NCBI RefSeq assembly: GCF_000024845.1
Contig: NC_013501.1
Coordinates: 2,212,874 to 2,276,873 of the forward strand
DNA from: Rhodothermus marinus DSM 4252
GTDB lineage: Bacteria > Bacteroidota > Rhodothermia > Rhodothermales > Rhodothermaceae
Direction: 5' to 3'
DNA: 64,000 nt
The translations under genes were made by a program, and so were the position numbers. Shown here in pieces: positions 24,186-62,376 of the stretch. Within the stretch, counting starts at the first letter, position 1, and each line of letters starts with the position of its first letter. The notes below the pieces were generated by a model. It was not told where the DNA came from. It was given only the letters and a program-made list of their open reading frames with translations, and did no database searches.

Positions 24186-27100
24186 ATGCATCGCTTCAGC
24201 CATCTGCACTGCCACACCCAGTATTCGCTCCTTGACGGTGCCGCCCGCATTCAGACGCTGCTGGAACGGGCGGCCGAATACGAGATCGAAGCCGTCGCCA
24301 TCACCGACCACGGCAATCTGTTCGGCGTGCCGGAGTTTTACCGCACCGCCGAAAAGATCGGCATCCAGCCAATCATCGGCTGCGAGTTTTACCTGACGCC
24401 CACCAGTCGCCACGATCGCAACGAGCGCACCCGCTACCATCAGGTGCTGCTCGCCAAAAACGAAACGGGCTACCGCAACCTGATCAAGCTCTCCTCGCTC
24501 TCCTACCTGGAAGGCTACTATTACAAACCGCGCATCGACCACGAGCTGCTGACGCAATACCACGAAGGGCTGATCGCCACCACCTGCTGCCTGCAGGGCG
24601 AGATTCCGCAGACGATCCTGCACAAAGGCGAAGAGGCCGCCCGTAAACTTTTCGAGTGGTATCTGGAGCTGTTCGGCGAGGACTATTACATCGAGATTCA
24701 GGATCACGGGCTGCCCGAGCAGAAGAAGATCAATGCCATTCTGCTCCGGTGGGCCCGTGAGTACGGCGTCAGGGTGATCGCGACAAACGACGTGCACTAC
24801 GTCGATCGCACCGACTTCGAACCGCACGACGTGCTGCTCTGCCTGCAGACGGGCAAGGACATGTCGGATCCGAGCCGGCTGCGCTTCGACAACGACCAGT
24901 TCTACCTGAAAAGTCCGGCCGAGATGCGCCAGGCGCTGCTGTCCGACATCGAGCCGCGCCTGGTCGACGAGATGATGGCCAACACCGGCGAGGTGGCCGA
25001 CAAATGCCGCTTCCAGCTTCCCACCGGCAAGCTGCTCATGCCGCATTACCCGATCCCGCCCGAGTACAACGGCGACATGGACGCCTACCTGCGGGATCTG
25101 GTCTTCGAGGGGGCCCGCCGTCGCTACGGCGATCCGCTTCCGCACGAAGTGGCCGAGCGCCTGGAGCACGAGCTGGCCATCATCAAAAAGATGGGCTTTG
25201 CCGGCTACTTCCTGATCGTGCAGGACTTCACCACGGCTGCCCGACGGCTCGGCGTGCGCGTCGGTCCCGGACGCGGTTCGGCGGCCGGTAGCGCCGTGGC
25301 CTACTGCCTGGGCATCACGAACATCGACCCGCTCAAGTACGACCTGCTCTTCGAGCGCTTCCTGAACCCCGAGCGCGTCTCGATGCCCGACATCGACATC
25401 GACTTCGACGACCGCGGCCGCGGCAAGGTCATCGACTACGTCGTGCAGAAGTACGGCCGGGAGAACGTCTGCCAGATCATCACCTTCGGCACGATGGGCG
25501 CCAAGATGGCCATTCGCGACGTGGCCCGCGTGCTGGGGATCCCGCTGGCCGAAGCCGACCGCATCGCCAAGCTCATCCCCGACGGCCCCAAGGTCACGCT
25601 GGCCCAGGCCTACGAAGAGGTGCCCGAACTCCGCGCCCTCAAGGAAAGCAACGATCCGCAGATCCGCAAACTGCTCCACTATGCCGAGGTGCTCGAAGGC
25701 TCGGTGCGCCACACCGGCGTGCATGCGGCCGGGGTCATCATCGCGCCCGGCCGCGTGAGCGACTACGTGCCCGTGGCCGTCGCCAAGGGCAAAGACAACG
25801 ACACGGTCACCACCCAGTACGACGGCAAGTGGATCGAGGAGTTCGGGCTTCTCAAAATGGACTTCCTGGGGCTGAAGACGCTTACCATCCTGAACGACGC
25901 GCTTCAGCTCATCAAAGAAAACCACGGCATCGAGATCGACCTGGATCAGATTCCACTCGACGATCCGAAGACGTTCGAGCTGTTCCAGCGGGGCGAGACG
26001 GTCGCCATCTTCCAGTTTGAATCCGAGGGCATGCGCGAGTGGCTGCGCAAGCTCAAGCCCACGTCGATCGACGACCTGATCGCGATGAACGCGCTCTACC
26101 GGCCGGGCCCCATGGATCTGATCCCCAACTACATCGCCCGCAAGCACGGTCTGGAGCCCGTCGAGTACCCCCATCCTCTGCTCGAACCCGTCCTGAAGAA
26201 CACCTACGGCATTCCCATCTATCAGGAGCAGGTCATGCAAATGGCTCAGGTAATGGCCGGCTATACGCTCGGACAGGCCGACCTGCTACGCCGCTGCGTT
26301 GCTGAAGGTACCCTTATCGTAGATGCCCGCACCGGCCGCCGCGTCCCTGTGGAAGAAGTCCAGCCCGGCATGGAAGTCTGGTCGCTGGGCCCCGACCTCC
26401 GCCTGCACCGCGTTCCTGTACAGGCCCGATTTGACAACGGAATACAGACCGTTTACAAAGTCCGGACGCGCACAGGTCGCACCATCGAACTAACCGCCGA
26501 ACACCCACTACTGACGCTGCAGGGCTGGAAGCATTTGTGCGATTTGAAAGTGGGCGACGCGATCGCCGTTCCGATTTCCCTTGCTACAGAAGGCGATCTC
26601 TCCCCTGATCCAGCCCGCGTTAAACTTCTGGCCTACCTGCTGGGCGATGGCAACACGGTACATCGCACACCCCGCGGCGACGCCCCGACCGCCCGTTTCT
26701 TCACCTCCTCGCCGGCACTTCGCAACGACTTTCTGAATGCAGTCCAGACGCTGGGAGGACAGGTTCGCATTTACAAGCACCCGATCACCGGCGTCGAGAC
26801 GATCTACTGCACCGCTCCGAAAGGACAGGCGGACCCTGTGCTCACGTTAATTCGCGAAGTTGGTCTGATCGGACGTGCCCATGAAAAGCGCGTCCCCGAG
26901 GAGGTCTTTCGCTACACGCAGGCCGCCTTGCGTCTTTTCCTGGGCCGTCTCTGGAGTACGGATGGTTCTATTGAGAAAAAACGCCTGTCTTATTGCTCCA
27001 CCAGTATGGAGTTGATCGAGGATATTGCTCATCTACTTCTTCGACTGGGCATCAACACAATACGCCGTCAGCGCACTACCACCCATCGTCCCGCCTTTGA

Positions 27101-29009
27101 ACTGGTTATTACCGATCAGCGCGACATCGTTCTATTTGCTCGCCAGATTGGCCCTTACCTTGTCGGGGACAAAAAGAAACGCCTGAAGGCACTCGTCCGG
27201 CAAGCGCTGCAACGCGTGCGCAATCAATCGATTTATCTGATTCCAGCAGAAGTCGGTCATTTGGTTCGTGCGGCAAAAGTTAAAAGTGGACTGAGCTGGA
27301 CACATGCCGGAGCTCGGGTCGGGGTGCCCGGCACTTCGCTATCGGCCGGATTGAATCTGAAAACACCACGCCGAGCTCTCTCTCGCCACCGAACGGCGCT
27401 GCTCGGACGAGCCTTTGCTGATGAAACTTTACTGGCCCTTTCCGAGGGTGAGGTGCTCTGGGATCCCATCGTTGAAATCACCCCAGTTGGACGCAAACGC
27501 GTGTACGATCTTGCCGTGCCGCCCTTCGCCAACTTCGTTGCCCAGGACATTGTTGTGCACAACTCCATGGGCAAGAAGAAGGTAGAGGAAATGAAAAAGC
27601 ATCGGGAAATCTTTGTAGCCGGTGCGGCCGAGCGAGGCGTTGACGCGGAAACGGCCAATGCGGTCTTCGACATGATGGAGAAGTTCGCCGGGTACGGGTT
27701 CAACAAGTCGCACTCGGCGGCCTATTCCATCGTGGCCTATCAGACGGCCTATCTGAAGGCCAACTACCCGGCCGAGTTCATGGCGGCGGCGATGACCAGC
27801 GAAATGGGCGACACGAAGAAGCTGGCCGTGGTGCTCGACGAAGCCCGCCGCATGGGCCTGGAGCTGCTGCCGCCTTCGATCAACCGGAGCCAGGCACACT
27901 TCACCGTCGAAGACGGCCGCATTCGCTTCGGCCTGGGCGCCATCAAAGGCGTGGGCCTGGGTGCCATCGAGGCCATTCTCAAAGCCCGCGAAAAGCACGG
28001 CCCGTTTCGCACCATTTTCGACCTGATACGTCACCTGGACCTGCGCGTCGTCAACAAAAAGGTGCTCGAGTCGCTGGCGCGTGCCGGTGCGCTCGACGAG
28101 CTGGAAGGACACCGGGCCCAGCTCGTCGAGGCGATCGACCTGGCCGTCCAGTACGCGCAGAAGGTACAGGCTGACCGGATGGCCGGACAGGCCTCGCTCT
28201 TCGGCGAAAGCGGCACGCGCACGGCCCTGCCGCCGCCCAATCTGCCGGTGGTGCAGCCCTGGTCGCGTGCCCGCTGCCTGAAGGAGGAGCGCGAGCTGAT
28301 CGGCTTTTACGTGACGGGGCACCCGCTCGAAGCCTATCGCGCCGAGGTCAACGCCTTTGCCACCACCACGCTGGCCGAGCTGTCGCGCACGCTGGAGGAG
28401 GCGGACATGCCTCGCAACGGATCGACCAACGGACACACAAACGGCACAACGAACGGCCATGCGTACCGTCCGGCCCGTCCCCGTCATCGCATCTGCGGTA
28501 TCATCACCGAAGTGCAGCGGCGCATAGGGCGCAACGGCCGGCCGCTCGCCTTTGCCTCGATCGAAGACTTCACCGGTCAGGGCGAGCTGGTCATCTTTTC
28601 CTCGGTGCTGGAACGCGTCATGCCCTATCTGGAAGTGGACGCCGTTGTGCTCGTCGAGGGCCAGGTCGAGGTGCGCGGCGGCAGCGTCAAGGTGCTGGTG
28701 GACGAACTGTGGCCCATGTGGAAGGTGCGCGACGAGCTGGTCGAGGCGCTGGTGGTGCAGCTCGATCTGGAGCAAGTGCGGCCCGAGCAGCTCGACCGCT
28801 TCCACGCGCTCTGCCGCGAGCATGCCGGCCGCTGCAAGCTGTACTTCGACCTGCTCAGCCCCGACTTTCCGGGCGGCCGCCAGCGATTGCTGAGCCGACG
28901 CTGCCTGGTCGAGCTCAACGATACGCTGATGCAACAGACGCTGCGCCTCTTCGGCGCCGAGGCGATTCGCCTGGAAAGCCGCCGCCTGTCGGCCCCGGTG
29001 CGTTCATGA
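24186..29009 (+). CDS. dnaE: DNA polymerase III alpha subunit, interrupted by an in-frame intein
   Basis: Replicative C-family polymerase, 1607 codons; 1184 residues after removal of a 423-residue intein (residues 704-1126). The N-terminal PHP domain starts FSHLHCHTQYSLLDGAARIQ. The catalytic PDIDIDFDD lies at residues 401-409, matching the two catalytic Asp of E. coli alpha. The intein splits ADLLRR from SMGKKKVEEMKKHREIF, the polymerase fingers region. A helix-hairpin-helix region and an OB fold (RHRICGIITEVQRR onward) follow. A linker at residues 1411-1425 contains four Asn-Gly pairs (NGSTNGHTNGTTNGH). The gene is monocistronic as far as visible. Confidence 0.97.
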   Translation: MHRFSHLHCHTQYSLLDGAARIQTLLERAAEYEIEAVAITDHGNLFGVPEFYRTAEKIGIQPIIGCEFYLTPTSRHDRNERTRYHQVLLAKNETGYRNLIKLSSLSYLEGYYYKPRIDHELLTQYHEGLIATTCCLQGEIPQTILHKGEEAARKLFEWYLELFGEDYYIEIQDHGLPEQKKINAILLRWAREYGVRVIATNDVHYVDRTDFEPHDVLLCLQTGKDMSDPSRLRFDNDQFYLKSPAEMRQALLSDIEPRLVDEMMANTGEVADKCRFQLPTGKLLMPHYPIPPEYNGDMDAYLRDLVFEGARRRYGDPLPHEVAERLEHELAIIKKMGFAGYFLIVQDFTTAARRLGVRVGPGRGSAAGSAVAYCLGITNIDPLKYDLLFERFLNPERVSMPDIDIDFDDRGRGKVIDYVVQKYGRENVCQIITFGTMGAKMAIRDVARVLGIPLAEADRIAKLIPDGPKVTLAQAYEEVPELRALKESNDPQIRKLLHYAEVLEGSVRHTGVHAAGVIIAPGRVSDYVPVAVAKGKDNDTVTTQYDGKWIEEFGLLKMDFLGLKTLTILNDALQLIKENHGIEIDLDQIPLDDPKTFELFQRGETVAIFQFESEGMREWLRKLKPTSIDDLIAMNALYRPGPMDLIPNYIARKHGLEPVEYPHPLLEPVLKNTYGIPIYQEQVMQMAQVMAGYTLGQADLLRRCVAEGTLIVDARTGRRVPVEEVQPGMEVWSLGPDLRLHRVPVQARFDNGIQTVYKVRTRTGRTIELTAEHPLLTLQGWKHLCDLKVGDAIAVPISLATEGDLSPDPARVKLLAYLLGDGNTVHRTPRGDAPTARFFTSSPALRNDFLNAVQTLGGQVRIYKHPITGVETIYCTAPKGQADPVLTLIREVGLIGRAHEKRVPEEVFRYTQAALRLFLGRLWSTDGSIEKKRLSYCSTSMELIEDIAHLLLRLGINTIRRQRTTTHRPAFELVITDQRDIVLFARQIGPYLVGDKKKRLKALVRQALQRVRNQSIYLIPAEVGHLVRAAKVKSGLSWTHAGARVGVPGTSLSAGLNLKTPRRALSRHRTALLGRAFADETLLALSEGEVLWDPIVEITPVGRKRVYDLAVPPFANFVAQDIVVHNSMGKKKVEEMKKHREIFVAGAAERGVDAETANAVFDMMEKFAGYGFNKSHSAAYSIVAYQTAYLKANYPAEFMAAAMTSEMGDTKKLAVVLDEARRMGLELLPPSINRSQAHFTVEDGRIRFGLGAIKGVGLGAIEAILKAREKHGPFRTIFDLIRHLDLRVVNKKVLESLARAGALDELEGHRAQLVEAIDLAVQYAQKVQADRMAGQASLFGESGTRTALPPPNLPVVQPWSRARCLKEERELIGFYVTGHPLEAYRAEVNAFATTTLAELSRTLEEADMPRNGSTNGHTNGTTNGHAYRPARPRHRICGIITEVQRRIGRNGRPLAFASIEDFTGQGELVIFSSVLERVMPYLEVDAVVLVEGQVEVRGGSVKVLVDELWPMWKVRDELVEALVVQLDLEQVRPEQLDRFHALCREHAGRCKLYFDLLSPDFPGGRQRLLSRRCLVELNDTLMQQTLRLFGAEAIRLESRRLSAPVRS
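26295..27563 (+). mobile_element. DnaE intein with LAGLIDADG homing endonuclease
   Basis: Codons 704-1126 of dnaE. It begins with Cys (CVAEGTLIVDARTGRRVPVE, block A), has TAEHPLLTLQGW (block B with TxxH) and ends NFVAQDIVVHN before Ser+1 of the C-extein: a class 1 intein with all nucleophiles intact. Two dodecapeptide motifs, LLAYLLGDG (814-822) and FLGRLWSTDGS (918-928), keep both catalytic Asp, so the homing endonuclease may be active. Base composition is more A/T rich than the exteins (hand count 29/60 G+C at 26941-27000 versus 39/60 at 25381-25440), consistent with later acquisition. Confidence 0.95.
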
Positions 29010-49606: not shown

Positions 49607-51298
49607 TCACCAGGTGTAGACATACCGGAGCACCGTCAGCAATTCTGAAAACCCACCGGCGGCGCGTTCCGTGCGTCGCAGCTGTTGATCGAGGCTCAGC
49701 GTTCCCCGATAAGGCGACGGCAATTGATAGCGAAGGCCCCAGCGCAGCATCAGTTGCGTGGCGGTATCGACGGTCGTCAGGCGAGAAAGACCGGCGCTGG
49801 CCTGCAGCTGTAGTCCGGACCGCAGCGGATACTGCGCTGCTTCGCTGAAAGCCCAGATGCGTGTGCGCCAGCGGGGCATCCGCGTATCGGAAAAACTGAG
49901 CGTGGTGCTCAGCCGGAGCCGGGAAGGCATCTGGTAGCTATGTGCCAGTGTGAGCGTATGTGTGCGGTTGTGCACGCCGTCGGGATGTGTGAAGGTTCGG
50001 TCTTCCGAATCCTGAAAGCTGTACGTCAGGCTCAGCGTGTGCAGGTGGCCGTTCTGCTGCAACATCAGCCGGGGGGTCAGGCTCAGGCTCCGGGAAATGT
50101 TCTGCAGACGCAACGTGTCGGCCCGGGGCCTGAGCTGGAAGCCGTAGTTGCTGAAAGCTGCATCCAGTCCGAACCGAGTCTCGGGTTGCCAGGAAAGGTT
50201 CACGGCCACGATGGTGCGTGCCGTGGTGGCCAGCCGACTCTGGCGCAGGTTGTTGTAGCGCAGACCACCCCGCATACTCACCACCAGTCCCATGCGACGT
50301 AGCTGCAGCCGTGGTGCAACGGTCAGATCCAGCACGTCGCTTTCCAGTTGAGGCTGCCCGAGCGTCGTGTAGCCCGGCCCGATCCAGCGCCCGCCCAGCG
50401 CCACCGAAAAGCTGCTCGCCGGCTCCACGGTCAGTTCGGCCTCGGCCGCCCCATCGATATTCGACGAATGCCGGGGTGTGAACAGCCACGAAGGGATCGA
50501 GATGCCGATCTCGAGCTGATCGGATCGCAGATCCCGGCTGAAAGCTCCCACGGCTACCTCGCTCCGCCAGCGCACGTATCGCCCCAGCCGTAGCCCGGTC
50601 TGCAGAGAAGCCACTGTGTTTTCCTGCGGTGCAACCGCCATCCGTACAGGGCCATCAGGCGTCAGAAGCCACCGCAGCGACTCTCCCCGTGTCGTATCGT
50701 CCTTCTGATGGCTGACCGTCAGCAATACCTCGGTGGCACCCTGCTGAATACCCACCTGAACCGCCCAGAAATTGCGCGCATAACTCCCCGACAATCCGGC
50801 ATCCAGATCGGCTTCGCGGGGCGAGCGCGTGCGGCCATACAGAACCACCAGGCGCAGGGGACCGGGCGTCAGTTCCATCCCGGCCCCCCGCACCCGGATG
50901 CCGCCAAGGGTCAGGGGAGTGAGCGGACGTGTGAACGAACCCAGATGCAGTCGCAACCAGGGACCAATGCGCGGGCTGATACCAACCTGGTTGAAGGGCT
51001 GCAAACCCGGCAGGGTGACCCCCGGGGCTCCCTGAAATCGGCGTTCCTGGGTGCTTAACTGAAGTTCCAGCGGGATTTCCAGCCAGCGTCCGATGGATAC
51101 CACCGAACGTGCAAACAACCGTCCGTTCCAGGTAGGACGATAGGCGGCCGCCGGAGCGGACTCACTCGCCGAGAACTGTTCACCCGTCAGGCTCAGGCTC
51201 CCTGAAAACCGCACCGGCTGGCCGAAACATGCCGTACTCACCAGAACCAGCACCACCAGGGCAAGCCCGCCCTGCATCAGCCTGCTCATGGCCGTCAT
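49607..51298 (-). CDS. Large outer-membrane beta-barrel protein
   Basis: A 563-residue exported protein. The signal peptide (LMQGGLALVVLVLVSTACFG, then QPV) precedes a long series of alternating strands with Arg/Tyr/Leu patterns (WLEIPLELQLSTQERRFQ; RLHLGSFTRPLTPLTLGG; HTLSLTYSFQDSEDRTFT) that end in LLTVLRYVYTW, a terminal aromatic residue as in porins. This is a large barrel with no plug domain, unlike TonB receptors. The ATG at 51298 overlaps the stop of the TANFOR-like gene (ATGA), so the two are co-translated and may form a surface pair. Confidence 0.8.
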   Translation of the reverse strand: MTAMSRLMQGGLALVVLVLVSTACFGQPVRFSGSLSLTGEQFSASESAPAAAYRPTWNGRLFARSVVSIGRWLEIPLELQLSTQERRFQGAPGVTLPGLQPFNQVGISPRIGPWLRLHLGSFTRPLTPLTLGGIRVRGAGMELTPGPLRLVVLYGRTRSPREADLDAGLSGSYARNFWAVQVGIQQGATEVLLTVSHQKDDTTRGESLRWLLTPDGPVRMAVAPQENTVASLQTGLRLGRYVRWRSEVAVGAFSRDLRSDQLEIGISIPSWLFTPRHSSNIDGAAEAELTVEPASSFSVALGGRWIGPGYTTLGQPQLESDVLDLTVAPRLQLRRMGLVVSMRGGLRYNNLRQSRLATTARTIVAVNLSWQPETRFGLDAAFSNYGFQLRPRADTLRLQNISRSLSLTPRLMLQQNGHLHTLSLTYSFQDSEDRTFTHPDGVHNRTHTLTLAHSYQMPSRLRLSTTLSFSDTRMPRWRTRIWAFSEAAQYPLRSGLQLQASAGLSRLTTVDTATQLMLRWGLRYQLPSPYRGTLSLDQQLRRTERAAGGFSELLTVLRYVYTW

Positions 51299-53652
51299 TC
51301 CTGCACGACGATGGCCAGGTAGAGCGCATCTTTCGAAACAAAGCCCCAGACCGGTGGCACGGGCGCCCGCCGATCCCACATCTTGCGTTCGTTGTATTCC
51401 CCTTCCGCAATCCCGAAAATGCTGGAGGCTTCGTTGTCCATTCGCTGCGTTCCCGACGGCTGTCCGGGATCGGTGGTCGGTGGCTTCGGAGGGGCAAGGC
51501 GAAACCACATCCTGCGTTCGTTGTATTCCCCTTCTGCAATCCCGAAAATGCTGGAACCGTCTCCACCCGTTCGGCTCTCGGGTTGAAGGTTCATCTGAAT
51601 GGTGGTGGGGAAGGGCAGCCAGATGCGGGAAGGCTGGAAGGTGCCTTCCACCATGAACCCGATCGTGCGCACGCCCCTTCCTTTCCCCAGATTGTCCTTG
51701 ATTTCCCCGGTTGTTCTGAACCACCCTGCCCCTGCATCGCCGAAGACGAGCAGGCTCAGGACCGGACGGCTTGTCCGCTGCGTTTCCGAAGGCATACCGG
51801 GGTCCACCGTGGGCGGTTCGGGCGGAAGGATCCGATCCCACATTTTGCGTTCGTTGTATTCCCCTTCTGCAATACCGAAAATGCTGGAGGCTTCGTTGTC
51901 CATCCGGGCACTGCTCTGCTCAGGAGCGAACAGGTCGGTGAGCCCGGCATCCCGGACCAGCCGGTTGCCCGCTTCGATGCGATAGGGAAGGGCGGGAATA
52001 CAGTCGGTAGGACTGGTAGGTCCCGGCGACCCCGGAGGAATGGGCAGCCCCGGACAGGGGAAAGGCACTCCGGGGGGATCTCCTCCCTGTCGTCCGGTGG
52101 CGTCGAAATCGATCTCCAGAAGCGAGTGCGACCCGCCGTGGACCCGTCCGGTGGCGTCGAAGTCGATCTCCAGAAGTGAGTGCGACTGACCGATGACCGA
52201 GGAGACACTTCGGGCCTGAAGCCGGATCATGTTGTCGCCTTCCTGCGGCCGGGGTGGCCCAACCCGTTCAAAATCCTTTTGCAGACCTTCAATAAGCTCC
52301 ATAAACTCATCCCGGGAAAGGGTATCGGGCAGGCGAAACTCAAAAAGGACCAAGTGGAGCGTGGGCGGCGTTCCGGGATTTGCAGTTCGAGACTCGGATT
52401 CAATGATGGCGTAAATGTCAGATTCACGGAAGGGGCTTGCACTTCTTGCTTCAGATTCATTGCCGGATCCCTCGCTTGAAGTATTATTGCCCGTATCGTT
52501 TGTCTGACGGGCTCTCATGTTTCTAATGGCATTCATGGCAACATCATGACGAGCTTTTATTCCATTAGAAGTTGTACTGAAGCGTCTTGACTGGATCTGG
52601 ATCTGTGGCCGGCCGTCGCTTCCGGGCACCATCTTGACCTCATAGATCACCGCCCGCTCTCCCTTGACCTCCTGGGTCGAGGGCGTCCCGCCGGGCAGTT
52701 GCCCCCGGAGTTCCAGGGTGCCCCTGTAGAGATCCAGCAGGTTCACCCGGAAGTGCAGCATTCCGGCAAATTGGACCGATGCGGCGGCATTCGAAGTATC
52801 GGGTTCCTCGGCGCCAACGGGACGGAAACTCTCGATGGTACTCCAACCGTCGTTTCGTCCCATTGGCTGACCATTCACCACATGCTGCACGCGCCAGACC
52901 AGGTCCACCGCGTCGGGATAGGTGAGAAGATCCGGATCGGTGGGCAGATAGGGGTAACTGGTCGCCGCAACTTCCGTGGTAAACAGCAGGGGGTTTTCGC
53001 TCATGGCCTGCTCGGGCGTCTGGCCTTCGAAGCGTGGCTTGATGACCAGCCGATAGGCACTGGCCGCAAACTGCGGCGTGGCCGGTGTCCATCGAAAGAC
53101 GGGAGGCCGCTGCATCACGTTCACCACGGTACCTCCTACCGGCTCCAGCAACACGGGCGGGTCGGGCAGCACCACGGCAAAGTGTGGACAGGGGATCGTT
53201 TCCCCCAGTCGTTGCCCGTCTGCGCTTACCACCCACAGACACAGCTCGTAGCCGCCTTCCGGCAGCGCTCCGCTCGTGGCCACCCGCTCGGCCTCGGCCT
53301 CGTCGTAGTCGATGGCGTCAAGCGCCACCGCTTCGCGCCAGCTCAGGCTCACCGCACCGCCGGCGGGCAGATCGAAACGCGGCAGACTCGGATGCTGATC
53401 ACGGATCCGGGCCAGCACCTGACCGCCCTCGCGTGTAAGCTGACCACCCAGGGTCAGCCCTTCAAGTGGCTCCGGGGTCGGATTGATTACAAGGATGCGA
53501 ATCTGGGCCTCGTTCCGCTCCCATTCGCTCAGATACGGCGACAGATTGGATCCGAGCGGAAACTGGACCTGCAGTTGCACCTGTGCCTGCGCCGATACCA
53601 CGAAAAGCAACAGTCCGACCCAGCGCAGCACATAGCGTGACCCTGTTTTCAT
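51295..53652 (-). CDS. TANFOR-like secreted protein with in-frame repeat units
   Basis: A 785-residue exported protein. Signal peptide (LRWVGLLLFVVSAQA, then QVQLQVQF) and an N-terminal region with the feel of TANFOR-type surface proteins: SPYLSEWERNEAQIRILVIN, LPEGGYELCLWVVSADGQ and RPPVFRWTPATPQ. The C-terminal half holds two motif families: SHSLLEIDFDATGR twice (52090-52131 and 52144-52185) and SSIFGIAEGEYNERKMW or its variant three times (51376, 51505 and 51838), partly preceded by MDNEA. Repeat copies are near-identical even at silent sites. Function unknown; TANFOR assignment from memory of the family. Confidence 0.7.
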   Translation of the reverse strand: MKTGSRYVLRWVGLLLFVVSAQAQVQLQVQFPLGSNLSPYLSEWERNEAQIRILVINPTPEPLEGLTLGGQLTREGGQVLARIRDQHPSLPRFDLPAGGAVSLSWREAVALDAIDYDEAEAERVATSGALPEGGYELCLWVVSADGQRLGETIPCPHFAVVLPDPPVLLEPVGGTVVNVMQRPPVFRWTPATPQFAASAYRLVIKPRFEGQTPEQAMSENPLLFTTEVAATSYPYLPTDPDLLTYPDAVDLVWRVQHVVNGQPMGRNDGWSTIESFRPVGAEEPDTSNAAASVQFAGMLHFRVNLLDLYRGTLELRGQLPGGTPSTQEVKGERAVIYEVKMVPGSDGRPQIQIQSRRFSTTSNGIKARHDVAMNAIRNMRARQTNDTGNNTSSEGSGNESEARSASPFRESDIYAIIESESRTANPGTPPTLHLVLFEFRLPDTLSRDEFMELIEGLQKDFERVGPPRPQEGDNMIRLQARSVSSVIGQSHSLLEIDFDATGRVHGGSHSLLEIDFDATGRQGGDPPGVPFPCPGLPIPPGSPGPTSPTDCIPALPYRIEAGNRLVRDAGLTDLFAPEQSSARMDNEASSIFGIAEGEYNERKMWDRILPPEPPTVDPGMPSETQRTSRPVLSLLVFGDAGAGWFRTTGEIKDNLGKGRGVRTIGFMVEGTFQPSRIWLPFPTTIQMNLQPESRTGGDGSSIFGIAEGEYNERRMWFRLAPPKPPTTDPGQPSGTQRMDNEASSIFGIAEGEYNERKMWDRRAPVPPVWGFVSKDALYLAIVVQE
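51376..51441 (-). repeat. In-frame repeat MDNEA-SSIFGIAEGEYNERKMW, last copy
   Basis: The third copy (in reading order) inside the TANFOR-like gene, followed by DRRAP. Together with 51838-51903 and 51505-51555 it forms a family of near-identical 51- to 66-base units separated by 80-300 bases of diverged linker. Confidence 0.85.
51505..51555 (-). repeat. In-frame repeat SSIFGIAEGEYNERRMW, middle copy
   Basis: The same unit without the MDNEA prefix (GGDGSSIFG instead) and with Lys changed to Arg. It is followed by FRLAPPKPPTTDPGQPSGTQ, which matches DRILPPEPPTVDPGMPSETQ after the first copy, so the duplicated block is longer than the core. Confidence 0.85.
51838..51903 (-). repeat. In-frame repeat MDNEA-SSIFGIAEGEYNERKMW, first copy
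   Basis: The first copy in reading order (nearest the N-terminus), in front of DRILPPEPPTVDPGMPSETQR. It differs from the last copy at only a few silent bases, evidence for recent duplication or gene conversion. Confidence 0.85.
52090..52185 (-). repeat. Tandem in-frame repeat SHSLLEIDFDATGR
   Basis: Two 42-base copies (52144-52185 and 52090-52131) separated by 12 bases (encoding VHGG). They encode the same 14 residues and differ at only a few third positions. They sit just before a Pro/Gly-rich linker in the TANFOR-like protein. Confidence 0.85.
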
Positions 53653-58710: not shown

Positions 58711-58864
58711 GGCGCCCGTAAACGAACAACCCCGCCGTGAGGTTCTTTCAGCTTCCTGCAAAGAAGGTCTTTTTGACCTCGCTTTTTTCCAACGCCTGAG
58801 CCCCTGTGATTTTTCGGCAATCGTCTGATTTTTCTGGGCGTTCCGTCGTATTTTGAAGCCAGGC

Positions 58865-60196
58865 ATGCATCGCTCGACGGCTGGGGCTGTGAAGCAGAGT
58901 CGCTTCAAAATCTTTTCGGATCCGGTGCACGGATTCATCTCCGTGCCCAAGAACCTGCTGCTGGAGCTGATCGAGACGCCCGAGGTGCAGCGCCTGCGAC
59001 GCATCCGGCAGCTCGGGCTGGGCCACCTGGTATTTCCGGGCGCCGAGCACACACGCTTCAACCACGCGCTGGGTGCCATGGCGCTCATGCAGGAGGCGCT
59101 GGCCAACCTTTCAGAAAAAGGCACGCCCATCTCCGAAGAAGAGCACCTGGCCGCCTGCGCCGCCGCGCTGCTGCACGACATCGGCCATGGGCCGTTCTCC
59201 CACACGCTCGAACACCAGCTCATCGAGGGTTTCCGGCACGAAGCCATGAGCCGCCGGCTCCTGCTGCGCCTGAACGAACGCTTTGGCGGCGCGCTGGAGC
59301 TGACCATCAAGATCTTCGACGATGCGTACGAACGCCCCTTCTTCCACCAGCTCGTCTCCAGCCAGCTCGACATGGACCGCCTCGACTACCTGCGCCGCGA
59401 TTCGTTCTACACGGGCGTGGTCGAAGGCAAGGTCGGCGTGCAGCGCATCATCAAAACGCTCCGGGTGCATCCGACGGAAGGCGGGCCCGACAGCCGCATC
59501 GTGATCGAGTCGAAGGGCATCTATGCCGTGGAAAACTTCCTGATCGCGCGGCGGCTCATGTACTGGCAGGTCTATCTGCACAAGACAGTGCTGGCGGCCG
59601 ATGCGCTGCTGCGGGCCATCATCCGACGCGCCCGCACGCTCCTGCAGCGCGGCGACGAGGACGCGGCCGCCCGTTGCTCTCCGGCGCTTCGTTTCTTCCT
59701 GGAGCATCCGCTCCACGCCCCGGAAGCGCTGGATCGGGACGACGTAATCGAGACGTTCTGCCAACTCGACGACGTGGACGTGCTGTTCAGCCTGAAGCAG
59801 TGGAGCCAGGCGCGCGATCCGGTGCTGGCCGACCTGAGCCGCCGCTTCATTCACCGCCGCTTTTTCCGGACCACGTTTCTGGCCGCGCCACCCTCCGAAG
59901 CGCAACTGGCAGCCTGGCACGAGCGGGTGGCCCGGTGGCTGGTGCAGGAAGGGATCGTCCCGGCCGCACTGGCCGACGAAGCCGCTTCCTACTACCTGAC
60001 GGCCGATGCCTCGGAGCATACGGCCTACGAGACCGACGCCGACCCGATTCCCGTCATCGACCGCGACGACCAGATCCGCGAACTCTCACGCACGACCGAA
60101 GCAACCGCCATCGACGCGCTGGCCCGCTACGTGGTCAAACCCTACCTCTGTTTGCCCAAGGAGGTGTCGGTCGAAGCTCCGGCGCTTTCGTCCTGA
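58865..60196 (+). CDS. HD-domain phosphohydrolase (SAMHD1/dGTPase-like)
   Basis: A 443-residue metal-dependent phosphohydrolase. The HD site is visible: His in EHTRFNHALGAMAL, HD in ALLHDIGHGPFSHTLE and Asp in SQLDMDRLDYLRRDSFYTG. FKIFSDPVHGFISVPKNLLL and EVQRLRRIRQLG are the family's N-terminal mark. Relatives hydrolyse dNTPs or other nucleotides. The frame allows a TTG at 58853; ATG at 58865 was used. TATTTTG at 58849-58855 could be a -7 box, giving a nearly leaderless message. The tail overlaps the convergent GNAT-ABC gene by 55 bases. Confidence 0.93.
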   Translation: MHRSTAGAVKQSRFKIFSDPVHGFISVPKNLLLELIETPEVQRLRRIRQLGLGHLVFPGAEHTRFNHALGAMALMQEALANLSEKGTPISEEEHLAACAAALLHDIGHGPFSHTLEHQLIEGFRHEAMSRRLLLRLNERFGGALELTIKIFDDAYERPFFHQLVSSQLDMDRLDYLRRDSFYTGVVEGKVGVQRIIKTLRVHPTEGGPDSRIVIESKGIYAVENFLIARRLMYWQVYLHKTVLAADALLRAIIRRARTLLQRGDEDAAARCSPALRFFLEHPLHAPEALDRDDVIETFCQLDDVDVLFSLKQWSQARDPVLADLSRRFIHRRFFRTTFLAAPPSEAQLAAWHERVARWLVQEGIVPAALADEAASYYLTADASEHTAYETDADPIPVIDRDDQIRELSRTTEATAIDALARYVVKPYLCLPKEVSVEAPALSS

Positions 60197-62376
60197 TCGG
60201 ACGCGCCCTGCTGATCTTCGGCGCGCAACCGCACCCAGAGCTGGTGACCGGGACGCCGACGGATCGGCACGGGTCGATCCAGACGGCGGGCGCGCTCCAT
60301 CACCCAGGCGTAGAGCGGACGCCCCTGCGCGTAGGCTTCGAGCGTTTCGGCGTCGGCCAGATGCTTGTCGGCATGGGCGCCGAGCTCCTCCACGGAAAAC
60401 GGTCCCCGTGTTTCCCGGATTTCGGCCGTGCCGATCACCTTGCCTCCGCTGATAATCCCGATGCGCCCGCGCACACGCGTGGGGTGCTTCCGGATTTCCC
60501 AGGTTTTCTTACCCTCCACGACGAAGCTGGCGTACGGCTCGCGGATGAACAGGCCCAGTTCGGGCAGTTCGTCGGCCCGAAAGAGCGTGCCATAGCCGAC
60601 CATGTAGATGGTGTCGGGCTCCAGCACGCGAAGCAGTTCAGGCCGGTGCGTCACCAGCACCAGCGTGATGCCGTGCGTGCGGGCCAGTTCGGCCAGCTTG
60701 CGTCCCACCCGGGCGGCCATGCGCGGGTCGAGATGCGCCGCAAATTCGTCGATGAGCAGCAGATTGGGCCGATGCGCCAGCGCCCAGGCCAGTTGCACGC
60801 GGGCTTTCTGTCCGGTGGACAGCTCCGCGTAGGGCGCCCGGAACAGCACGGCGTCGGCCAGGCCGGCCGCGTTCAGGATCTCGATGGCCAGTGCGGCATC
60901 GCCCGTAATCCGATAGAGCGACTCCAACACGGGCTGCGTGCCCAGCTCTGGCTCGGCCTCACCGGGAATCAGCGCCTGCAGCCGCACGTTGTCGGGCATC
61001 CGGATCTCCCCTTCATCGGCCCGGTAGAGCGGGTCGTCCCGCCCGGTGGCCGCCCCGATCAGCATTCGGAGCAGTGTGGTCTTGCCGCTTCCCGAAGCGC
61101 CCACAATGGCGTTGACCGTGCCCGGCTCCAGCCGGAAGTCGGCATCTCGGAAGACATAGGTCTGAATCTCGCGCTCTTCCACGCCGAAAGCTTCCAGCGC
61201 CTCACGCACCGGTTCGGAAAGTCCTTCCAGATTTAGCCGGTTGTGATACGTTTTGGTCACCCGGTGCAGCACCACCGGTCCGCTCAGCGGCTCGACCGGC
61301 GTAAAGCGCGGGCGATAGAGCCGTCCGCCATGCGCCCGGGCCAGCTCGTCTTCCTGCAGAAAGCGCTCGATGGCCTCGCGGGCCGTCTCGTCCAGCGGCA
61401 GGTAGAGCGCCGGACGGCCCGAGCCCGTCTCGAACAGAAAGACGAACCCGGCCTTCTCCATGAACGGATGGAAACGGGCCATCTGCGCCACGGTCTCGAC
61501 AGCCCGTTTGGGCAGGCGCATGTCGGGTATCCAGCGCTCGCGCACCCAGTCCATCATGCAGTGCAGCGCCTGCACGCCCAGTCCGTCGGCGCGGTAGTCC
61601 GGATGCACCACCACGCGCGCCAGTCGGGCCACGGGCGAGCGGGCGCGGGCCAGCACCTTCCCCTGCTCGTCCCACCAGGCTTCGGGCGGCACGTCCTGAT
61701 TAGGATGGAACGGATGGTCGAACCATTCCGGCGGAAAGATACGGCGGCGGATGTCGCGGTCGAGCGTCCCGTCGGGACGGCGGCGGTGCAGCAGCGGCAG
61801 CGGCGGATCGACGCGCACGTAGCCCACCACCTCGGGTTCGTAGGGCTGGCGGTCGAGCAGTTCCAGCACCAGAAAGCGCGAGGCACGGGTGGCGTCTTTC
61901 AGGTCGTGGAAACGCATGGGGCCGTGTCCGGCCGGGCAGTCCGGCCGGGCGTTGGCGGCCCGATAGGTGCCGCACCGCTCACAATACCAGAGGGCCAGCA
62001 CGCGCTCGCGCGAGGCGTAGTGGTACTGTTCCAGTTCGACGATGGCCGCGTAGTCGCGCTCGTAGCGGGCCTCGCGGGCACGTAGCCGGTAGCGGTAAAG
62101 CACCCGGTCGGAAAAAAGCGAACGACGCTCCAGCGTGTAGATGCGCTCGAACAGCGGCCAGACGGCCACGCGGGCCGTCCGAAGTGAATAGTCGTCGAAG
62201 CCGGGCTGCGGCTTTTCGGCGGCGAGCTGCACGCGCTGGCCCACGCGCAACCACTGCGCCACCGTGCCCGTCATGGGCAGCCGCCAGCGATTGCCGTCGT
62301 CGGTCTCGACCTCCACAAAGGCCAGGTAGCGATAGGACGGCCGCGCCAGCTCGATATTTTTAATCTGCCCCCGCAT
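60142..62376 (-). CDS. Zinc finger + GNAT-like + ABC ATPase + ASCH fusion protein
   Basis: A 744-residue four-part protein. Residues 1-130: beta-rich domain with no name. 131-155: CERCGTYRAANARPDCPAGH (C-x2-C-x11-C-x3-H), zinc-finger-like. About 160-330: GNAT-like, with RVVVHPDYRADGLGVQAL (R-x-x-G-x-G acetyl-CoA loop at 262-267). 405-605: ABC ATPase with Walker A GASGSGKTT (426-434), signature LSTGQKARVQLA (519-530), Walker B LLLIDEFAAHLD and VTHR (H-loop His 577). About 608-705: ASCH domain (GLFIREPYASFVVEGKKTWE). No transmembrane part, so not a transporter; RNA modification or handling is plausible but unproven. Confidence 0.85.
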   Translation of the reverse strand: MRGQIKNIELARPSYRYLAFVEVETDDGNRWRLPMTGTVAQWLRVGQRVQLAAEKPQPGFDDYSLRTARVAVWPLFERIYTLERRSLFSDRVLYRYRLRAREARYERDYAAIVELEQYHYASRERVLALWYCERCGTYRAANARPDCPAGHGPMRFHDLKDATRASRFLVLELLDRQPYEPEVVGYVRVDPPLPLLHRRRPDGTLDRDIRRRIFPPEWFDHPFHPNQDVPPEAWWDEQGKVLARARSPVARLARVVVHPDYRADGLGVQALHCMMDWVRERWIPDMRLPKRAVETVAQMARFHPFMEKAGFVFLFETGSGRPALYLPLDETAREAIERFLQEDELARAHGGRLYRPRFTPVEPLSGPVVLHRVTKTYHNRLNLEGLSEPVREALEAFGVEEREIQTYVFRDADFRLEPGTVNAIVGASGSGKTTLLRMLIGAATGRDDPLYRADEGEIRMPDNVRLQALIPGEAEPELGTQPVLESLYRITGDAALAIEILNAAGLADAVLFRAPYAELSTGQKARVQLAWALAHRPNLLLIDEFAAHLDPRMAARVGRKLAELARTHGITLVLVTHRPELLRVLEPDTIYMVGYGTLFRADELPELGLFIREPYASFVVEGKKTWEIRKHPTRVRGRIGIISGGKVIGTAEIRETRGPFSVEELGAHADKHLADAETLEAYAQGRPLYAWVMERARRLDRPVPIRRRPGHQLWVRLRAEDQQGASDQDESAGASTDTSLGKQR

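Follow-up and report, generated by a model that had tools for sequence, protein, structure and literature searches.

A soluble GNAT-ABC-ASCH protein of Rhodothermus marinus as a candidate ATP-coupled nucleic-acid acyltransferase of thermophiles

The enzymes TmcA, NAT10 and Kre33 join an ATPase module to a GNAT domain that carries a His-Tyr (HY) pair and an HPxxQ/RxxGxG motif. To our knowledge, very few RNA acetyltransferases have been described, and the makers of N4-acetylcytidine form a single family. In NAT10 of C. thermophilum, catalysis reportedly depends on the pair His548-Tyr549, and His48-Tyr49 is said to be important in Mom of phage Mu, a GNAT-superfamily DNA-base modifier with an HY motif; we used both reports as a lead, not as a test. 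GNAT domains paired with ABC ATPases were predicted to modify DNA bases with acyl groups (Iyer et al. 2013, as cited in PMC7824862). ASCH domains have been described as readers of modified DNA (PMC10853773, PMC12839542), and the ASCH protein YqfB, an N4-acetylcytidine amidohydrolase, uses Thr24 as its nucleophile (PMC6972931). Here we describe a gene of Rhodothermus marinus DSM 4252 that combines GNAT, ABC ATPase and ASCH domains in one soluble protein. It is an ATG-started, stop-free open reading frame of 744 codons at 60142..62376 (-) of the analyzed stretch of 64,000 nucleotides (NC_013501.1, positions 2,212,874 to 2,276,873; hereafter the window). With a probability of about one half, the protein is a soluble ATP-coupled acyltransferase that would use acyl-CoA to acylate, or in the simplest case acetylate, the exocyclic amine of a nucleic-acid base.

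Pfam searches revealed ABC_tran at residues 410-545 (E value 3e-16), ASCH at 610-680 (1e-7) and Acetyltransf_1 at 239-311 (4e-5), each above its cut-off. About 60 homologues were read, and 42 were used for the conservation alignment and for an AlphaFold2 model of residues 1-372, which had a predicted local distance difference test (pLDDT) score of 93. This model showed a beta-barrel followed by a GNAT domain with an insert, and its best PDB matches were GNAT structures. The full-length model (pLDDT 87) added a single ABC ATPase domain, a single ASCH domain and a tail that is disordered from about residue 708; it matched ABC ATPases and TTHA0113, a solved ASCH protein of Thermus thermophilus (TM-score 0.85 over the target). 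The ASCH domain has both the fold and the GxKxxExR motif of its superfamily. Transmembrane segments were not seen by eye in the chain, for which no prediction tool was used, and the models consisted of soluble domains. The features of an ABC transporter were not found, as there is no membrane domain in cis and no adjacent permease gene, and the single ABC domain differs from the two linker-joined domains of ABC-F proteins. The sequence-only reading of this gene had listed a C-x2-C-x11-C-x3-H finger, a GNAT acetyl-CoA loop, a complete ABC ATPase without membrane segments and a C-terminal ASCH domain, and these results bear out the GNAT, ABC and ASCH assignments. The loop proved intact, but it belongs to a far larger domain (about residues 92-330, with a zinc-ribbon insert), and the list had omitted the N-terminal barrel (about residues 1-85), which may bind nucleic acid. 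The finger residues C132, C135, C147 and H151 are present but only partly conserved in the family: C132 was found in 41 of the 42 aligned homologues and C147 in all, but C135 in only 27. At the fourth ribbon position, 150, the family usually has Cys and the window protein has Gly, with His151 beside it. Most relatives have a C4 ribbon, which was lost in some, including several archaeal and Thermaceae members.

R251, R254, H258, D260, R262, G265 and G267 of the acetyl-CoA motif RLARVVVHPDYRADGLG were unchanged in 42/42 homologues, and the Walker A, signature and Walker B motifs were found in nearly all. The HY pair was also present in archaeal-virus ABC-GNAT proteins (10/10), phage GNATs (2/2), TmcA (as AHYR, in 13/13 readable sequences) and Mom (as HYS, 6/6), and in the viral proteins, TmcA and Mom alike it follows the first GNAT helix. 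In a fold search with the GNAT model, the eight best PDB matches were NAT10/Kre33 or pre-ribosome entries containing it (E value 1e-5), followed by the tRNA acetyltransferases TacT and AtaT; RimI ranked well below these, and drug and polyamine acetyltransferases were also lower. Because the three comparison enzymes all modify an exocyclic base amine, we propose that this GNAT acylates a base amine. The window protein differs from TmcA and NAT10 in having an ABC ATPase in place of the RecD-like helicase motor, and an ASCH domain in place of the C-terminal part of TmcA. Matches to GNAT_acetyltr_2 (PF13718) were under the cut-off both for the window protein (E value 0.31) and for its best relative (0.0095). 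Mom, which has neither ABC nor ASCH, was rejected as a direct relative (hhalign probability 0.5%).

The ASCH domain is genetically coupled to GNAT-ABC. It was fused C-terminally in 14 loci and in the window protein; in one of these loci, L020, a contig end leaves only the start of ASCH. In 22 other loci a separate ASCH gene lies immediately downstream on the opposite strand, mostly with an overlap of 4-100 bases, and a single archaeal locus has it just upstream, in the same orientation. When whole genomes were searched, 21 of the 28 that carry GNAT-ABC contained ASCH, always as a single copy; archaeal members were mostly without it. The fused proteins formed one clade with 100/100 support across at least seven phyla, in a tree whose alignment included ASCH columns, which are informative for the fused rows only. 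Their grouping across so many phyla makes a single fusion, followed by transfer between thermophiles, the simplest history. The fused domain is a homologue of TTHA0113 (PDB 2DP9/1WK2), the stand-alone form, which is a separate polypeptide. Close Thermaceae relatives of TTHA0113 adjoin GNAT-ABC. One such ASCH gene aligned with it end to end (E value 1e-66), and it is very likely that the TTHA0113 gene adjoins the GNAT-ABC gene in T. thermophilus HB8. YqfB shares the ASCH motif GxKxxxxR with its catalytic Lys and Arg positions, but the Lys-Thr-Glu triad is incomplete here, as the Thr position is Glu in more than 90% of the alignment and Thr in none. A YqfB-like deacylase was rejected on this ground, and the ASCH domain is thus unlikely to undo a mark.

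A second family of about 490 residues, found in 31 of 220 Thermoproteota genomes, carries the same modules in reversed order, ABC then GNAT. Its GNAT matched the window-type GNAT by profile (99.1% probability, E value 5.6e-19, 42% identity over 66 columns), and its ABC module is homologous as well (E value about 1e-31 for the best member). Both orders share an AFG motif ahead of Walker A, as well as the HY pair, HPxYRxxGLG and the MARYNPFFEKAG motif (YNPFxEKAG / YNPFFEKAG), which corresponds to residues 299-311 of the window protein. At six archaeal loci (L119-L122, L124, L126) the ABC-GNAT gene directly follows a long open reading frame, which encodes a terminase large subunit in the one tested, with tail genes behind. 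These loci are proviruses, as a terminase-type gene and tail genes adjoin the ABC-GNAT gene; some archaeal genomes (G566, G494, G455) have two or three copies. SSU5-like and nickie-like phages encode ABC and GNAT separately, in the order ParB, ParB, ABC, X, GNAT, then terminase and portal, and the two phage genes match the archaeal ABC-GNAT protein over almost all of its length (E value 3e-81 for ABC, 7e-32 for GNAT). The phage GNAT is annotated as 'MK0520 protein, ABC-type ATPase fused to a predicted acyltransferase domain'. Gene X differs between phages, and in L050 it has a HEALH (metalloprotease-like) motif. A Mom-like acetyltransferase gene of a Microbacterium phage (L163:1-721) overlaps a ParB-like gene, much as the ABC and GNAT genes of the phages above have ParB genes for neighbors. 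Finding this pair in three different arrangements provides strong evidence that ABC and GNAT work together.

The proteins of the MK0520/COG2401 type (archaeal proviruses; phrog_886/phrog_293/phrog_11143 in phages) have GNAT and ABC modules homologous to those of the window protein, but in the opposite order and without N-terminal barrel, zinc ribbon or ASCH, and their genes are viral and stand next to terminase. The cellular GNAT-ABC loci, by contrast, showed no viral context. Because of the order GNAT-ABC-ASCH as against ABC-GNAT in the archaeal set read here, an order that may not be defining for MK0520/COG2401, the window protein would be a sister subfamily rather than a member; the COG2401 label itself comes from the phage annotation. 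GNAT-ABC (12/220) and ABC-GNAT (31/220) did not overlap in Thermoproteota genomes, with a chance estimate of about 16% for zero overlap, and mutual exclusion is not claimed.

We propose that the GNAT domain would be the catalytic part, in which His119-Tyr120 would serve as the active-site pair does in TmcA/NAT10, with acyl-CoA as the predicted donor. The ABC domain would dimerize with a second copy, close on ATP and act as a motor that opens or positions a structured substrate, a role comparable to that of the helicase module in TmcA/NAT10. The ASCH domain would be the targeting domain and, together with the barrel and zinc ribbon, would dock the substrate. A nucleic-acid substrate, whether RNA or DNA, is likely. 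Given such a substrate, RNA (tRNA or rRNA) is somewhat favored in thermophile cells because of the fold neighbors, the occurrence among thermophiles and an apparent absence of restriction context; in favor of DNA are the viral relatives and the prediction that PMC7824862 cites. The sequence-only reading had guessed at an ATP-driven RNA acyltransferase or repair factor. Its acyltransferase agrees with the folds, the HY pair and the ASCH linkage, and a specific repair role found no support.

Several observations weigh against this proposal. The rRNA and tRNA modifications of T. thermophilus are well mapped, and we know of no unexplained acylated base among them. The query-normalized TM-scores of the fold matches were low (0.24-0.29) because of the inserts in the GNAT model, and GNATs of many substrates resemble one another. 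By sequence profile, the best PDB match was the protein acetyltransferase RimI (E value 0.002), with NAT10 at only 0.29. The viral relatives speak for a DNA substrate and not for RNA, and five archaeal genomes carry this family together with TmcA. One Thermaceae copy (L045:5959-7722) has a degenerate signature, LSAAQ, and Walker B, VEGLAAFLD, and is perhaps an ATPase-dead version. A general replacement of missing TmcA was rejected, since those five archaeal genomes have both, although no PF13718 or TmcA was found in Rhodothermus.

The viral evidence can also be read as a sign that the protein acylates a base of the cell's own DNA, leaving a Mom-like mark; it would serve in self-marking or be a viral modification enzyme that thermophiles have adopted. 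We consider this doubtful, but it is the best supported of the alternatives. It would explain the ABC-GNAT genes directly downstream of terminase in archaeal proviruses, the phage operons with ParB-like genes and terminase, the HY pair common to Mom, and ASCH as a modified-DNA reader, and it agrees with the prediction for GNAT and ABC pairs that is cited in PMC7824862. In four Thermaceae loci (L134, L135, L136, L138), moreover, a conserved gene adjoins the ASCH gene, and in L134 (4245-4898), the one tested, it encodes an HhH-GPD DNA glycosylase. Against it, no restriction enzyme or mobile-element context was recognized at the cellular loci, there was no profile match to Mom, and the nearest folds act on RNA.

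A RimI-like acetyltransferase of a ribosomal or translation protein, tethered to the ribosome by ABC and ASCH, is unlikely. Its favor rests with the RimI profile match, the binding of ABC-F proteins to ribosomes and the possible binding of ASCH to rRNA, but RimI ranked far behind NAT10 and TacT/AtaT in the fold search, has none of the HY pair, beta-barrel and zinc ribbon among its features, and the viral relatives stand with terminase and not with translation genes. An acetyltransferase of small molecules (e.g., of polyamines, which in thermophiles are typically long or branched) is highly improbable, as is an ABC regulator with GNAT as a mere sensor: GNATs often act on amines, drug and polyamine enzymes appear in the fold search and the distribution is restricted to thermophiles, but the constant link of ASCH and ATPase and the viral relatives would go unexplained, and the catalytic residues of both enzymes are conserved.

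A scan of a genome collection with the N-terminal part returned 36 loci in Rhodothermus, Bipolaricaulota/Acetothermia, vent Chloroflexota, Thermoflexus, Thermomicrobium, Thermaceae, WOR-3, Poribacteria, Caldisericota, Neomarinimicrobiota and Thermoprotei (Thermoproteota). Nearly all homologues came from thermophilic lineages or hot-environment metagenomes (hot springs, hydrothermal sites), thermophily being judged from lineage and source, not from growth temperatures. In Deinococcota the gene was present in 33 of 111 genomes; carriers were 1.4-2.4 Mb, and the larger genomes among those listed were without it, a split that we take as Thermaceae versus Deinococcus. The whole protein found no relative in a viral contig collection. 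Searches of phage and plasmid collections with tblastn returned mostly ordinary ABC transporters, and a gene on a Thermomicrobium megaplasmid was the sole full-length true homologue. Assignment to a defense system was rejected, as the PADLOC matches touched the ABC part only. Across the loci read, no conserved operon beyond ASCH was found; the recurring neighbors PheT, ThiF, AsnC, a thiamine pyrophosphate (TPP) enzyme and HhH-GPD were confined to close lineages.

In the class of the window organism the gene was found in Rhodothermus only (5 of 245 genomes). Three other Rhodothermus genomes have a full-length copy (84-96% identity), and in a fourth the gene is in two pieces (93-94%) broken at contig ends. 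It is absent from G001, a 98% complete genome with other genes at the neighboring site, and its absence from G005 is uncertain because a contig ends there. The neighbors are an HD-domain hydrolase gene and a histone-deacetylase-like gene, in the same setting in both loci whose flanks were read. With the HD-hydrolase gene (58853-60196), which is convergent, there is an overlap of 55 bases at 60142-60196; split relatives have the ASCH gene as the partner that converges and overlaps. The sites are listed in Table 1.

Table 1. Positions of the GNAT-ABC-ASCH gene, its domains and motifs in the window, and of the phage operons.
Feature	Position	Strand	Evidence
GNAT-ABC-ASCH protein, whole gene, 744 residues	60142..62376	(-)	Open reading frame, Pfam, kept among Rhodothermus relatives
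Small N-terminal beta-barrel, residues 1-90	62107..62376	(-)	AlphaFold2 strands E2-10, 19-25, 30-35, 48-53, 77-85
GNAT acyltransferase domain with large insert, about residues 92-330	61387..62103	(-)	Pfam, AlphaFold2, fold search
His119-Tyr120 pair, end of first GNAT helix	62017..62022	(-)	42/42 homologues
Zinc-ribbon-like insert inside GNAT, residues 128-160	61897..61995	(-)	C132, C135, C147, H151
GNAT acetyl-CoA motif RLARVVVHPDYRADGLG, residues 251-267	61576..61626	(-)	42-homologue alignment
GNAT motif MARFHPFMEKAGF (family form MARYNPFFEKAGF), residues 299-311	61444..61482	(-)	P304, F305, E307, G310 invariant
ABC ATPase domain with AFG motif ahead, residues 370-600	60577..61269	(-)	Pfam, models
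Walker A GASGSGKTT, residues 426-434	61075..61101	(-)	G426, S428, G429, G431, K432 invariant
ABC signature LSTGQ, residues 519-523	60808..60822	(-)	Homologue alignment
Walker B and catalytic Glu, LLLIDE, residues 539-544	60745..60762	(-)	Homologue alignment
ASCH domain, fused TTHA0113-type form, residues 603-717	60226..60570	(-)	PDB 2dp9/1wk2 E value 4e-38; GKKTWEIR motif; fold match, TM-score 0.85 over target
Phage ParB-ParB-ABC-X-GNAT operons	L050:2734-6148, L051:2177-5689		

Two other parts of the window were noted. A DnaE (DNA polymerase III alpha) reading frame of 1607 residues at 24186-29009 (+) has an apparent intein, seen by eye, from about CVAEGTLIVD to VVHN|S. A long reading frame at 51295-53652 (-) contains at least three copies of the repeated peptide SSIFGIAEGEYNERKMW and overlaps another long reading frame with its own repeats, HFRDCxRGIQRTQDV.

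The sequence-only reading had regarded the protein as its strongest candidate for an undescribed system, to be given up if, among other things, its homologues were a well-studied family. The relatives do not refute it in this way; they are labelled but uncharacterized. The pairing of ABC and GNAT was already named in phages (MK0520/COG2401) and has a published DNA-modification prediction there; as far as found, the ASCH linkage, the spread among thermophiles and the NAT10-like active site are new. No paper on the thermophile GNAT-ABC(-ASCH) form was found in the open-licence literature. Tentatively, these proteins may represent a second, thermophile-restricted class of RNA-base acetyltransferases, with an ABC motor unrelated to that of TmcA/NAT10 and with ASCH carried or paired. 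Gene transfer would have spread this class among bacterial phyla, and a viral, presumably DNA-modifying ABC-GNAT pair would be its ancestor or its descendant. The genetic tractability of Thermus thermophilus opens the proposed acyltransferase to direct tests. If true, it would be a second, ABC-driven family in thermophiles, which would bring a nucleic-acid modification not described before and couple an ABC motor to base chemistry in a new way. It would also explain the orphan structure TTHA0113, solved in 2004-2006, and would tie a cellular modification to a viral enzyme pair encoded beside terminase.

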